A stretch of DNA of 64,000 nucleotides, taken from contig NZ_JAAEDI010000004.1 in the NCBI RefSeq assembly GCF_018129025.1, positions 124,001 to 188,000 of the forward strand. The letters are read 5' to 3'. Shown here in pieces: positions 2,265-39,317 of this stretch. This stretch comes from Neoroseomonas terrae. Lineage in GTDB: Bacteria > Pseudomonadota > Alphaproteobacteria > Acetobacterales > Acetobacteraceae. The first letter of the stretch is position 1; each line of letters starts with the position of its first letter. Below the pieces are notes generated by a model. That model was given only the letters and a program-made list of their open reading frames with translations, did not search any database and was not told the origin of the DNA. A program made the position numbers and the translations under genes.

Positions 2265-2488
2265 GGAGGGGCTTTGCCCCTCCAAGCCACCCCAGCAAAG
2301 GCCGAAAGGCCTTTGCAAACCTCAATTTGGTGCGCTGCGCCGCTGGCAGAGTTGATGCCGGAACGCGCCCTTGCGCACGAACCGCGCCTGAAACGGGCGG
2401 CAAAGCCTGCCGCGCTCGACACCAACAGATTGCGGTCCAGGGGGTCCAACCCCCTGGCGGGGTGGCTCGGAGGGGCGGCGCCCCTCCG
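2265..2488. repeat. Composite palindromic intergenic element, copy 1
   Basis: Four perfect hairpins lie in mirrored order. Outer left 2265-2283 has stem GGAGGGGC/GCCCCTCC. Inner left 2295-2316 has GCAAAGGCC, loop GAAA, GGCCTTTGC. Inner right 2437-2457 has CCAGGGGGT/ACCCCCTGG. Outer right 2468-2488 has CGGAGGGGC/GCCCCTCCG. Read inward from either end, AGCCACCCC follows the outer hairpin, so the two halves are inverted repeats whose inner stems differ in sequence. The core of about 120 bp has no supported gene. The element sits between convergent gene ends (2198 and 2531) and matches the elements at 12666, 24451, 36641 and 38635. Confidence 0.9.
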
Positions 2489-12640: not shown

Positions 12641-12665
12641 GATGCGTTGGCGGTCCCGGTGTGAT

Positions 12666-12916
12666 CGAAGGGGGCTTTGCCCCCTTCGAGCTTCCCCCAC
12701 CAAAGGCCGAAGGGCCTTTGGAAACCAATACCTGGCGCCCGGCGGAGCGGTTGCTTGCCCCGGCGGTGTTCGCATCGCGCCCGGTGCGTCGGATTCGATT
12801 TGGAACGCTGGGCGCAATCTTCAGGCACAACCACTGTGCCCGGCACCAGAAGGAGGTTTCCAACGGCCTTTCGGCCTTTGGTGGGATGAGGTTCGGAGAG
12901 GGGCAAAGCCCCTCTC
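12666..12916. repeat. Composite palindromic element, copy 2 (inside an ABC operon)
   Basis: Outer left hairpin 12666-12688 (CGAAGGGGGC/GCCCCCTTCG), inner left 12700-12721 (CCAAAGGCC, GAAG, GGCCTTTGG), inner right 12860-12881 (CCAACGGCC/GGCCTTTGG, one mismatch) and outer right 12896-12916 (GAGAGGGGC/GCCCCTCTC). The order and mirror symmetry match the other copies, but the inner right stem here is of the AAAGGCC type. It lies between the SBP stop (12930) and the ATPase start (12640), all on the minus strand. The core has no supported gene. Confidence 0.88.
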
Positions 12917-12929
12917 TGAGAGGTCCCCC

Positions 12930-24367: not shown

Positions 24368-24450
24368 GCGCAGCGTGTGAATTGGAGACGGGCGTAACCC
24401 CTTGCCAAGCCTCACCCCGTCACGGATGCCCATCCATGTTGGGTCCGCAT

Positions 24451-24669
24451 AGGCCCGAGGCCTTCGCAAACCATGACCTGGTGTTGGGCCCTGCGGTCAG
24501 TTGCGAGCGGAAAGCCGTCCGTAGCGCGCGCGCCTGGAAGACTCCTCAGGCGTCGGGCGCAGGAGCTTCCTCCGATCGTCCGGCTGCCTTTCGTGCACCG
24601 CGCCGAGTAACGGTTTCCAAAGGCCTCGGGCCTTTGGCGGGGTGGGTCCGGGAGGGGCAGAGCCCCTCC
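24451..24669. repeat. Composite palindromic element, copy 3 (left half degraded)
   Basis: The right half is intact: inner hairpin 24617-24637 (CCAAAGGCC/GGCCTTTGG) and outer hairpin 24651-24669 (GGAGGGGC, AGA, GCCCCTCC). On the left only a short AGGCC/GGCCT pair (24451-24463) remains, followed by GCAAACC and ACCTGGTG, which match the inner border of other copies; the left outer hairpin is missing. It lies between the convergent ends of the carbamoyltransferase and beta-propeller genes. The remainder of the 336 bp gap shows no gene. Confidence 0.75.
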
Positions 24670-35757: not shown

Positions 35758-36636
35758 ATGAGCATTCCCTTCATCCGGGAGGATACCCTGCCGCCCGGAG
35801 AGGTGCAGGAGGTTGCGCCGGGCGTGCGGCGCGTGCTCTGCGGCAATCCCGGGCCCTTCACCTATCGCGGCACCAATACCTGGATCATCGGCGGCGGCGG
35901 CTCGGTCGCGGTGCTCGATCCGGGCCCGGTGGATGAGGCGCAGCTATCGGCCATCCTGCGCGCGACGGAGGGTGAGCGGATCAGCCACATCCTCGTCTCC
36001 CACACCCATCGCGACCATTCCCCGGGCGTCGCCGCGCTACAGGCGGCGACCGGTGCGCGGTCCTACGGCTTCGGCCCCCACATGACGCCGCCGGATCAGG
36101 GCGGAGAAGGCGGCGACCACGGCTTCCGGCCGGATGTGACGCTGCCCGACGGCGGCACGGTCGAGGGCGATGGCTGGCGGCTGACGGCGCTGCACACGCC
36201 GGGGCACTGCGCCAACCATCTTTGCTTCGCGCTCGAAGGCACCGGCATCCTGTTCAGTGCCGACCATGTCATGTCGTGGTCCACCACCGTCGTCAGCCCG
36301 CCGGACGGCGACATGGCGGCCTATATGCGGTCCCTCGCGCGGCTGGCCGCACGCGACGACCGGCTGTACCTGCCCGGCCACGGCCCGCCGCTGCCTGAGC
36401 CCGCGCCCTTCGTCGCGGCGCTCGCCGCCCATCGGCGCGAACGGGAGGAGATGGTCCTGTCAGCGCTGCGCGTTGCCGGCCGCGCCACGGCGCAGGAACT
36501 GGTGCCGCCGGTCTATGGCCCAGCGCTCGACGCACGGCTGCTGCCGGCGGCGGCACGCAGCCTGCTCGCGCATCTGATCAAGCTGCAGGCGGAAGGCGCG
36601 GCGGCTCGCGACGGCGAGGCCTGGGCACCGCGGTAG
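35758..36636 (+). CDS. MBL-fold metallo-hydrolase, LACTB2-like
   Basis: The 292-residue protein has the metal motif H82-T-H84-R-D86-H87 in SHTHRDHSPG, then HTPGHCANH and SADHVMSW for the other ligands. The C-terminal winged-helix-like domain with YLPGHGPPL resembles LACTB2-type hydrolases and endoribonucleases. It is cytosolic with no signal peptide. The substrate is unknown; thioesters, RNA ends or lactams are possible. The gene stops 5 bp before a palindromic repeat element. Confidence 0.88.
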   Translation: MSIPFIREDTLPPGEVQEVAPGVRRVLCGNPGPFTYRGTNTWIIGGGGSVAVLDPGPVDEAQLSAILRATEGERISHILVSHTHRDHSPGVAALQAATGARSYGFGPHMTPPDQGGEGGDHGFRPDVTLPDGGTVEGDGWRLTALHTPGHCANHLCFALEGTGILFSADHVMSWSTTVVSPPDGDMAAYMRSLARLAARDDRLYLPGHGPPLPEPAPFVAALAAHRREREEMVLSALRVAGRATAQELVPPVYGPALDARLLPAAARSLLAHLIKLQAEGAAARDGEAWAPR

Positions 36637-36640
36637 TATT

Positions 36641-36859
36641 GGAGGGGCTTTGCCCCTCCAAGCCACCCCAGCAAAGGCCGAAGGGCCTTTGCAAACCTCA
36701 ACCTGGTGCGGTGCGCGGCTGCCCGAATGGGTGCCGAAACGCGCCGGTGCGCGCTGGGCGGGTGCAGGCCGGCTGCCGTGCCCGGCGCCAGACGATTGCG
36801 GTCCAGGATGCCCAGCATCCTGGTGGGGTGAGGTTTGGAGAGGGGCGACGCCCCTCTCC
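36641..36859. repeat. Composite palindromic element, copy 4
   Basis: Outer left 36641-36659 (GGAGGGGC, TTT, GCCCCTCC), inner left 36671-36692 (GCAAAGGCC/GGCCTTTGC), inner right 36803-36823 (CCAGGATGC/GCATCCTGG) and outer right 36837-36859 (GGAGAGGGGC/GCCCCTCTCC). Relative to copies 1 and 5, the inner right stem changed from GGGGGT/ACCCCC to GGATGC/GCATCC on both sides, keeping all pairs. It fills the gap between convergent MBL and helicase genes. Confidence 0.9.
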
Positions 36860-38634: not shown

Positions 38635-38858
38635 CGGAGGGGCCTTGCCCCTCCGGACCACCCCAGCAAAGGCCGAAAGGCCTTTGCAAACCTCCGTTTG
38701 GCGCCGCGCAACACGGGCGGGAAGGGTGCCGAGGGGCGCTCTTGCGCGCGAAACGTATTTGGAGGGGATAACAACGCCGTCATGCACGGCACTGACAGAT
38801 TGCGGTCCAGGGGGTCCAACCCCCTGGCGGGGTGGTTCGGAGGGGCGGCGCCCCTCCG
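38635..38858. repeat. Composite palindromic element, copy 5
   Basis: Outer left 38635-38655 (CGGAGGGGC/GCCCCTCCG), inner left 38666-38687 (GCAAAGGCC, GAAA, GGCCTTTGC), inner right 38807-38827 (CCAGGGGGT/ACCCCCTGG) and outer right 38838-38858 (CGGAGGGGC/GCCCCTCCG). It is nearly the same as copy 1 at both ends, but the core differs. The right end touches the stop codon of the GNAT gene at 38859. It lies upstream of the helicase. Confidence 0.9.
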
Positions 38859-39317
38859 TCAGAGCGATGCGTCCCGATCCAGTCGGATCACATAGGATCG
38901 CCAATCCGCCTGCTCGGCGATGCGTTCATAGAGCGCGATGGCGCCACGATCCGCCTCAGGCACGATCCAGCGCAGATGCGACCAGCGGCGTTCGCGCCCG
39001 ATGGCGCACAGCGCGTCGACCAGCGCGCGGGCGAGGCCCTGGCCGCGCCGGTCGGGCCGCACGAACAGGTCGTCCAGCGCGCCGCAGCGTCGGGCGAAGA
39101 CCGCTTCGGGCAGGTCGAAGAAGATCGCGAAGGCGAGCAGTTCCTCGCCTTCCGATGCGACGAGGATCTCGGTGCGCAGATCGGCGGCGAGCATCGCTGC
39201 GGCATCCGCACCCGACGCGGGGCGGCTACCGGTGAGCGTGTCGCGCATCTCGGCGGCGTAGGATTCTAGAAGGGGAGCGAGGCGATGGCGCTCGGCAGGC
39301 GGCAGTGGCGCGATCAA
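38859..39317 (-). CDS. GNAT-family N-acetyltransferase (TTG start)
   Basis: The 152-residue protein has the GNAT core, with LDDLFVRPDRRGQGLARAL for acetyl-CoA binding and the C-terminal IVPEADRGAIALYERI. No ATG lies before the domain. A TTG at 39317 is preceded by GAGGAG with 6 nt spacing, so I chose it. The substrate is unknown. It follows the H1-like gene but a strong terminator separates them. The stop abuts a repeat element. Confidence 0.8.
   Translation of the reverse strand: MIAPLPPAERHRLAPLLESYAAEMRDTLTGSRPASGADAAAMLAADLRTEILVASEGEELLAFAIFFDLPEAVFARRCGALDDLFVRPDRRGQGLARALVDALCAIGRERRWSHLRWIVPEADRGAIALYERIAEQADWRSYVIRLDRDASL

Follow-up and report, generated by a model that had tools for sequence, protein, structure and literature searches.

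A repeat dispersed through the genome of Neoroseomonas terrae is probably a non-coding element of two facing modules, each of which can fold as a hairpin with a third strand and is constrained as DNA. The window in which it was recognized is a stretch of 64,000 nucleotides (C4:124001-188000) from a draft genome of 5.77 Mb in 67 contigs, and an earlier sequence-only reading of it had described five copies of a palindromic element with covarying hairpin stems. Two features are absent from that reading: the large size of the family, and a new observation made here, that the C-rich linker is, copy by copy, the 3' arm of the outer hairpin read backwards.

Anatomy, copy number, and placement of the element

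Five copies were read directly in the window, four of which (at 2265, 12666, 36641, and 38635) have both halves, and the fifth, near 24451, has an intact right half (about 24601-24669) and a degraded left half (Table 1). From the outside in, a half-unit consists of an outer hairpin with a 3-nt loop (for example, TTGGAGGGGC-TTT-GCCCCTCCAA), 1 to 3 bases, a C-rich linker (CCACCCC and variants), usually 1 base, an inner hairpin (for example, CCAAAGGCC-GAAG-GGCCTTTGG), and an AAACC/ACCGC box; the second half has the same order on the opposite strand, and the halves face each other across a variable core. The mirror architecture reported by the sequence-only reading is evident at all five window sites, its description of an unusual composite build was right, and the stems differ between copies yet remain paired as it stated, with one mismatch in the right inner stem of copy 2. 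Copy 5 ends with its right outer hairpin at 38858, directly adjacent to the stop codon, starting at 38859, of a minus-strand gene (38859-39317, from codon-usage gene calls).

Table 1. Parts of the five element copies, with positions in the window
Feature	Position	Strand	Basis or remark
Copy 1 left outer hairpin TTGGAGGGGC-TTT-GCCCCTCCAA	2263..2285	+	read directly; stem is a perfect 10 bp
Copy 1 left linker CCACCCC, proposed third strand	2287..2293	+	mirrors the outer 3' arm, A opposite A
Copy 1 left inner hairpin GCAAAGGCC-GAAA-GGCCTTTGC	2295..2316	+	read directly
Copy 1 left AAACC box	2317..2321	+	read directly
Copy 1 right inner hairpin CCAGGGGGT-CCA-ACCCCCTGG	2437..2457	-	read directly
Copy 1 right linker GGGGTGG, proposed third strand on the G-rich strand	2459..2465	-	read directly
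Copy 1 right outer hairpin CGGAGGGGC-GGC-GCCCCTCCG	2468..2488	-	read directly
Copy 2 left outer hairpin TCGAAGGGGGC-TTT-GCCCCCTTCGA	12665..12689	+	read directly
Copy 2 left linker CTTCCCCC	12691..12698	+	exact mirror of arm CCCCCTTC
Copy 2 left inner hairpin CCAAAGGCC-GAAG-GGCCTTTGG and AAACC	12700..12726	+	read directly
Copy 2 right inner hairpin CCAACGGCC-TTTC-GGCCTTTGG	12860..12881	-	read directly; one mismatch
Copy 2 right linker and outer hairpin	12883..12919	-	read directly and half-unit profile
Copy 3 left half, degraded	24374..24473	+	read directly; absent from half-unit profile matches
Copy 3 right half, intact	24601..24669	-	read directly and half-unit profile
Copy 3 right inner hairpin CCAAAGGCC-TCG-GGCCTTTGG	24617-24637	-	read directly
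Copy 3 right linker GGGGTGGG	24639-24646	-	read directly
Copy 3 right outer hairpin GGAGGGGC-AGA-GCCCCTCC	24651-24669	-	read directly
Copy 4 left outer hairpin TTGGAGGGGC-TTT-GCCCCTCCAA	36639..36661	+	read directly
Copy 4 left linker CCACCCC	36663..36669	+	read directly
Copy 4 left inner hairpin and AAACC	36671..36697	+	read directly
Copy 4 right inner hairpin CCAGGATGC-CCA-GCATCCTGG	36803..36823	-	read directly
Copy 4 right linker GGGGTGAGG	36825..36833	-	exceeds the left linker in length; its own outer arm GGAGAGGGG is longer too
Copy 4 right outer hairpin TTGGAGAGGGGC-GAC-GCCCCTCTCCAA	36835..36861	-	read directly
Copy 5 left half: outer 38635-38655, linker 38658-38664, inner 38666-38687, AAACC 38688-38692	38635..38692	+	
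Copy 5 right half: inner 38807-38827, linker 38829-38835, outer 38838-38858	38807..38858	-	

The family is large. A BLAST-type similarity search gives at least 43 matches genome-wide, at least 40 of which span at least 212 of 224 nt at 78 to 100% identity (40 of 311 candidates scored). A profile of the half-unit finds 160 matches (E < 0.05) in 1.264 Mb of the genome and 0 in the same sequence reversed, and the single-stranded DNA fold of copy 1 reaches -82.2 kcal/mol compared with -52.1 in dinucleotide shuffles (z -7.7), none of the 200 shuffles being as good; together these exclude chance. The strict pattern GGAGGGGCNNNGCCCCTCCNNNCCWCCCC likewise occurs 147 times in the genome and 0 times when written backwards. 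With 52 profile matches in 800 kb of large contigs picked regardless of copies, the genome total is estimated by extrapolation at about 375 half-units. Half-units seem denser on G000 C30-C34 and C46 than on parts of C1 and C2, although this is an unfair count because the small contigs were picked for holding copies.

At E < 0.001 there are 151 half-units, forming 61 two-module elements and 29 unpaired modules. Most elements are about 220 bp (54 of the 61 are 190 to 260 nt), and 5 adjacent module pairs less than 400 nt apart are in an order other than facing. The best pair among the 61 is 94.6% identical (one 100% pair of neighbors with shared flanks was left out), so no very recent burst is seen. 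Nearly all modules (146 of 151) are in gaps between genes called by a codon-usage script, and in the 800 kb elements are present in 9 of the 88 convergent gaps, 19 of the 329 tandem gaps, and 2 of the 95 divergent gaps; gaps of these three kinds that are at least 100 nt long, occupied or not, number 39, 116, and 75, respectively. Solo halves in tandem gaps have no favored orientation (4 versus 6). At L229:1819-2279, two full elements are separated by 28 bases. A candidate autonomous element at L165, with two modules 658 nt apart around reading frames, looks more like ordinary genes with a module at each end.

Distribution and turnover among relatives

By DNA similarity, the element is present in 37 of 99 genomes including its own: 30 of the 34 other genomes of the genus (31 of 35 with N. 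terrae), 6 of 24 from other Acetobacteraceae genera, and 0 of 40 from other families. The strict pattern is found in 10 of 249 genomes of the family, N. terrae included, and has no match in 384 other genomes sampled across the class, of which just 4 belong to the family. An exact pattern for the inner hairpin matches at least 94 stretches in named genomes; the matches listed are from Neoroseomonas, Siccirubricoccus, Rhodovarius, Belnapia, Paracraurococcus, and Paeniroseomonas, as well as Roseomonas sp. HF4, R. rubea, and two Acetobacteraceae MAGs. Divergent relatives are undercounted by the half-unit profile because it was seeded with copies from N. terrae itself.

Elements are present or absent at orthologous sites and are gained and lost between species. 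At the copy 1 site, the element is missing from a short gap in G001, present as a single half in G012 and G032, and absent in G003 (by reading); at the copy 2 site, G032 retains the left half and G003 has none; and at the copy 5 site, G032 has a short gap without the element, and G003 is without the preceding gene and hence not comparable. Among the 30 orthologues listed for the gene upstream of copy 4, the family lies behind the gene only in N. terrae and G032, and the downstream gene is also the same at four of these 30 loci, N. terrae included (by reading). These two genomes have different inner hairpins in the one gene gap at 36641, and a stem swap in place was considered there; it was dropped because G001 and G012, which have the same neighbors by reading, have no element, and independent gains are possible.

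Cores vary among relatives in the 26 loci listed. Six copies in N. soli and N. oryzicola are 109 to 126 nt in total with almost no core, four copies in S. phaeus are 151 to 154 nt, and one copy each in N. alkaliterrae and N. nitratireducens has a core with a third long hairpin; other copies in N. soli (149 nt) and N. alkaliterrae (159 nt) are exceptions to the pattern. At L145, L148, and L193 (two relatives and one IMG/VR contig), a long third hairpin of the ATCGGGG..CCCCGAT type makes up the core, and at G028:C8:97417-97569 there are three outer-hairpin units in direct tandem with 62-base spacing.

A second repeat family, GGTCGGGGGAG..CTCCCCCGA.CCCCCTCC..TTTTTCTGTCT, has a different sequence with the same outer hairpin and mirror linker. 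It is seen at L060:14580-14720 and L217:14565-14850, and also at L070, L072, L218, and L226; several copies have a TTGGCGCC-like box common to the first family, and by reading it is also downstream of the orthologue of gene 35758-36636 in G003, G015, and G028. The flanks at L002, L003, L005, L008, L018, L021, L026, and L028 contain a further outer inverted repeat (CCGATACTTCCGCTGTCGAGTT .. GATCTCCGATGGCGGAAGTATCGG) followed by CTGATTA / TAATCAG, and some have remains of another module pair further out, forming layered palindromes. An extended outer flank, CCGATACTTCC.., was considered as a possible case of an element nested within an element: among 11 of its 13 genome matches, 8 adjoin known copies, L203 is a further copy, L201 is a remnant, and L199 looks coding.

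Covariation in two and three strands

The compensated stem changes noted in the sequence-only reading are strongly supported, and both hairpins covary relative to shuffles in N. terrae and in its relatives. Inner stems, each with its complement, include CCAAAGGCC, GCAAAGGCC, CCAGGGGGT, CCAGGATGC, CCAGGTGCT, CCAGGCCAT, CCAAGGGCC, CCGAGGGCC, and CCAAATGAC; parsing gave 17 different perfect inner stems of 9 bp and 76 different perfect outer arms. In N. terrae, the pairs of the inner stem are Watson-Crick in 91 to 99% of modules, in a set pre-filtered for at least 7 of 9 pairs, compared with shuffled means of 48 to 96%. Extension pairs 3 to 5 of the outer stem are Watson-Crick in 75 to 95% (32 to 59% shuffled), and the sixth is weak, at 41% versus 24% in N. 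terrae and not above shuffles in relatives (36%, with a shuffle maximum of 38%). For nearly all varying pairs, Watson-Crick pairing is more frequent than in any shuffle.

Mismatches on the strand as written are 11 G.T and 20 A.C in 2520 inner-stem cells, and 9 G.T and 32 A.C in outer extension pairs 1 to 4. As an A.C on the written strand is a G.T on the G-rich strand, there is a mild wobble lean on the latter, which fits folding of single-stranded DNA there and would also fit RNA of that strand; structural RNA usually shows far more wobble, a difference that is not decisive against RNA on its own. The earlier claim that compensation implies selection on structure holds in part: the covariation is strong, but template switching can also perfect a hairpin, and compensation is therefore only half of the case for selection.

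The relationship between linker and arm was examined in 350 modules, of which 238 distinct ones were parsed and 232 have a linker of at least 8 nt. For example, arm GCCCCTCC occurs with CC(A/T)CCCC, GCCCCTCTCGG with GCTCTCCCCG, GCCTCCCTCGA with GCTCCCTCCG, and GCCCCCTTCGA with GCTTCCCCCA. Across 141 distinct pairs, mirror identity is 0.835 versus 0.714 when shuffled (maximum 0.736; z 17, and z 18 in strict register), a match that pure-C tracts make partly easy, as the shuffled identity of already 0.71 shows; it is present in both N. terrae (z 7.4, 53 pairs) and its relatives (z 16.8, 104 pairs). A direct-repeat model is above shuffles but less so than the mirror (0.666 versus 0.628, z 5.4), and two complement models show no excess over shuffles in the 141 pairs. 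The whole tract is an exact mirror, with A or T accepted opposite an arm T, in 196 of the 232 modules (36 are not exact). By arm type, 27 of 33 have an exact mirror in at least half of their modules and 6 fail, compared with 67 of 1056 passing among cross combinations of one type's arm with another's linkers, where some types are a single module, three are at exactly half, and one is trivially short. Copies are related, and thus sequence counts are not event counts, a concern that the per-type test answers only partly.

Lengths vary together as well: among distinct pairs with a run of four, the first C-runs of arm and linker agree in 81 of 95, and the corresponding figures are 20 of 21 (runs of three), 11 of 11 (five), 5 of 5 (two), and 2 of 3 each for the rarer runs of six and one. 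Where an element has two different outer arms, the linker matches its own arm in 59 cases and its partner's in 4, with 2 ties, which rules out left-right cruciform pairing as the origin of the linker rule. A triplex at the inner hairpin involving AAACC was also considered, and the mirror rule fails there by eye.

The bases found in the linker indicate which type of triplex is plausible. Opposite G the linker has C at 738 of 746 positions, and the 173 positions opposite A comprise 96 T, 69 A, 7 G, and 1 C, counted in the 120 of 141 distinct modules with equal first runs, a choice that favors first-run agreement. The purine motif takes G.GC, A.AT, and T.AT triads and cannot form in RNA, whereas the pyrimidine motif takes only T opposite A (PMC4666352). 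The presence of both A and T opposite A is the purine-motif pattern, which makes DNA the better reading than RNA. The order on the G-rich strand is third strand, purine arm, pyrimidine arm, which is that of class I (PMC4666352), and the module fits as a candidate class I purine-motif intrastrand DNA triplex on this strand; the other strand may correspond to class III. In the ITxF definition, a class I motif comprises a third-strand block, a loop of 1-6, a purine block, a loop, and a pyrimidine block, with stems of 6-15 and at most 1 mismatch, and a strict class I motif is present on the expected strand in 111 of 160 modules (49 are missed). Our own implementation of an R-Y-Y motif finder (stems of at least 7, loops of 3-6 and 1-6) identifies 123 motifs in the 1.264 Mb, 114 of them in the hairpin-repeat family and, by reading, the other 9 in the second repeat family, versus 0, 0, and 0 in three Markov shuffles.

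Possible mechanisms and relationship to known repeats

In the mechanism that we propose, a module exposed as single-stranded DNA would form its Watson-Crick outer hairpin, the adjoining linker would enter the groove as a third strand, and the second hairpin would follow. The constraint is most likely at the level of DNA rather than RNA, and the folded ends most likely act on single-stranded DNA at replication forks, where they could block the fork, label the element for copying, or do both. We infer from the patterns of sequence change that triplexes may form in cells and may be what is selected; forks as the site of action, and this route to new copies, would be further steps of the same model.

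An action as RNA, with the repeat serving as a transcription terminator or a stabilizer of mRNA ends in 3' untranslated regions, would suit the gap occupancies given above and the mild G.T lean on the G-rich strand. However, avoidance of divergent gaps is equally expected from insertion tolerance, wobble is rare on both strands, solo halves in tandem gaps do not favor an orientation, and, as read directly in the window copies, neither hairpin is followed by the T-run of an intrinsic terminator, the C-rich linker being there instead. Linker A is also common and would be unacceptable to a pyrimidine-motif RNA triplex, and Rfam families have 0 matches in the window at gathering thresholds; we consider the RNA reading quite unlikely. 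Similarly improbable is that folding is not selected at all, with template switching perfecting the hairpins and the mirror match arising as a by-product of the shared ancestry of C-rich modules. The copies are indeed related, and palindrome correction would yield covariation with few wobble steps, but shared ancestry does not readily account for the 59:4 preference for the own arm in mixed elements or for the 27 of 33 arm types, and template switching copies antiparallel and therefore cannot yield a parallel (mirror) match of linker and arm.

How the element moves is a separate question. The sequence-only reading placed it with MITE/REP-type elements and suggested looking for target-site duplications and a RAYT transposase, and membership in either group is not borne out. 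A classical MITE, a non-autonomous transposon moved in trans by a DDE transposase with the hairpins as terminal inverted repeats, is unlikely, although the repeat resembles MITEs in its size, facing inverted ends, high copy number, lineage-specific cores, and presence or absence at orthologous sites. The terminal inverted repeats are present but vary in sequence while keeping their structure, with 76 distinct perfect outer arms; solo halves are frequent (29 of 151 modules); and an unsystematic look at the loci read revealed no longer copy with a transposase between the ends. At the best of 196 offset pairs, flank identity is 32 to 34% where the null averages 26%, a small excess that is uncorrected for offset choice, but there are 0 identical 4- to 9-mers at the best offsets among the 63 elements scanned, and thus no clear target-site duplication, noting that the true element end is uncertain in copies with extended flanks. 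Mobilization as a REP/BIME-like repeat by a RAYT (Y1) transposase acting on single-stranded hairpins is highly improbable, although a RAYT may have been lost after the spread. It would account for intergenic inverted dimers of hairpins, but Y1_Tnp (PF01797) has 0 matches in the N. terrae genome and is absent from 33 of the 34 other genomes of the genus, the exception (G027, 77% complete) having no element match; Y1 and the element were found together in none of the 59 genomes searched, N. terrae included, and as a control PF01797 was detected in 5 of 14 named genomes. The tags are rare too: within the 14 nt preceding the outer core, GTAG occurs in 7 of 128 N. terrae and 2 of 142 relative flanks, and CGTC in 7 of 128 and 5 of 142, respectively, as scored at the foot of the outer rather than the inner hairpin.

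Tentatively, the repeat may instead represent a new class of DNA that is mobile or spreads itself, with ends that would be recognized in the form of folded single-stranded triplex-hairpin modules by factors other than a Y1 transposase or a DDE enzyme that makes duplications. If so, the three-strand covariation would be, as far as we have searched, the first evidence from evolution, and not from prediction alone, of an intrastrand DNA triplex being important to living bacteria. Whether DNA triplexes have a cellular role has long been asked, up to now mostly through predictions and folding in vitro, and here some two dozen arm types (27 of 33) have a third strand that changed alongside, the kind of evidence that is used for RNA structure. 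The open-licence literature, in the portions available, yielded neither covariation evidence for bacterial triplex repeats nor a description of a hairpin-repeat family in 31 of 35 genomes of this genus. Natural matched and mismatched modules are available for direct tests.

REP/BIME sequences are short intergenic palindromes, often inverted dimers, located between convergent or unidirectional genes, as is the case here, and CGTC REPs also occur without a dedicated transposase (PMC3733652). They differ in that the N. terrae repeat has no conserved tag and no Y1 gene, and a mirror third strand is not part of the REP definition in the available text, which also lists CGTC repeats as missing from the Acetobacteraceae (PMC3733652).

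Among triplex repeats, class I accounts for 41.6% of all predicted triplexes, and the alphaproteobacterium Rhodospirillum photometricum is named as rich in G/C triplexes (PMC4666352); for these reasons such motifs may already be in the ITxF database, and the available text of that paper makes no mention of Roseomonas or of Acetobacter- or Acidiphilium names. The nearest known repeats are BoxC/PIT/TM-ECO, found in Escherichia coli and others, which are also G/C-rich, three-block sequences capable of forming a purine-motif intrastrand triplex (PMC4666352). In E. coli, PIT elements are reported to stop polymerase in vitro but showed no in vivo effect, and TM-ECO is not found with mobile elements and varies in number between strains (PMC4666352). 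The TM-ECO consensus, CCCTCNCCC N3-6 GGGNGAGGG N3 GGGNGAGGG, has 0 matches in the 1.264 Mb of N. terrae. TM-ECO is always intergenic in E. coli K-12 and is sometimes in inverted pairs (five cases) (PMC4666352), compared with 146 of 151 intergenic modules here, where facing pairs predominate. TM-ECO is class II (PMC4666352), whereas the hairpin-repeat family fits class I, with the block order reversed, and, unlike in TM-ECO, its candidate triplex motif is embedded in a larger unit that also contains a box and a second covarying hairpin.
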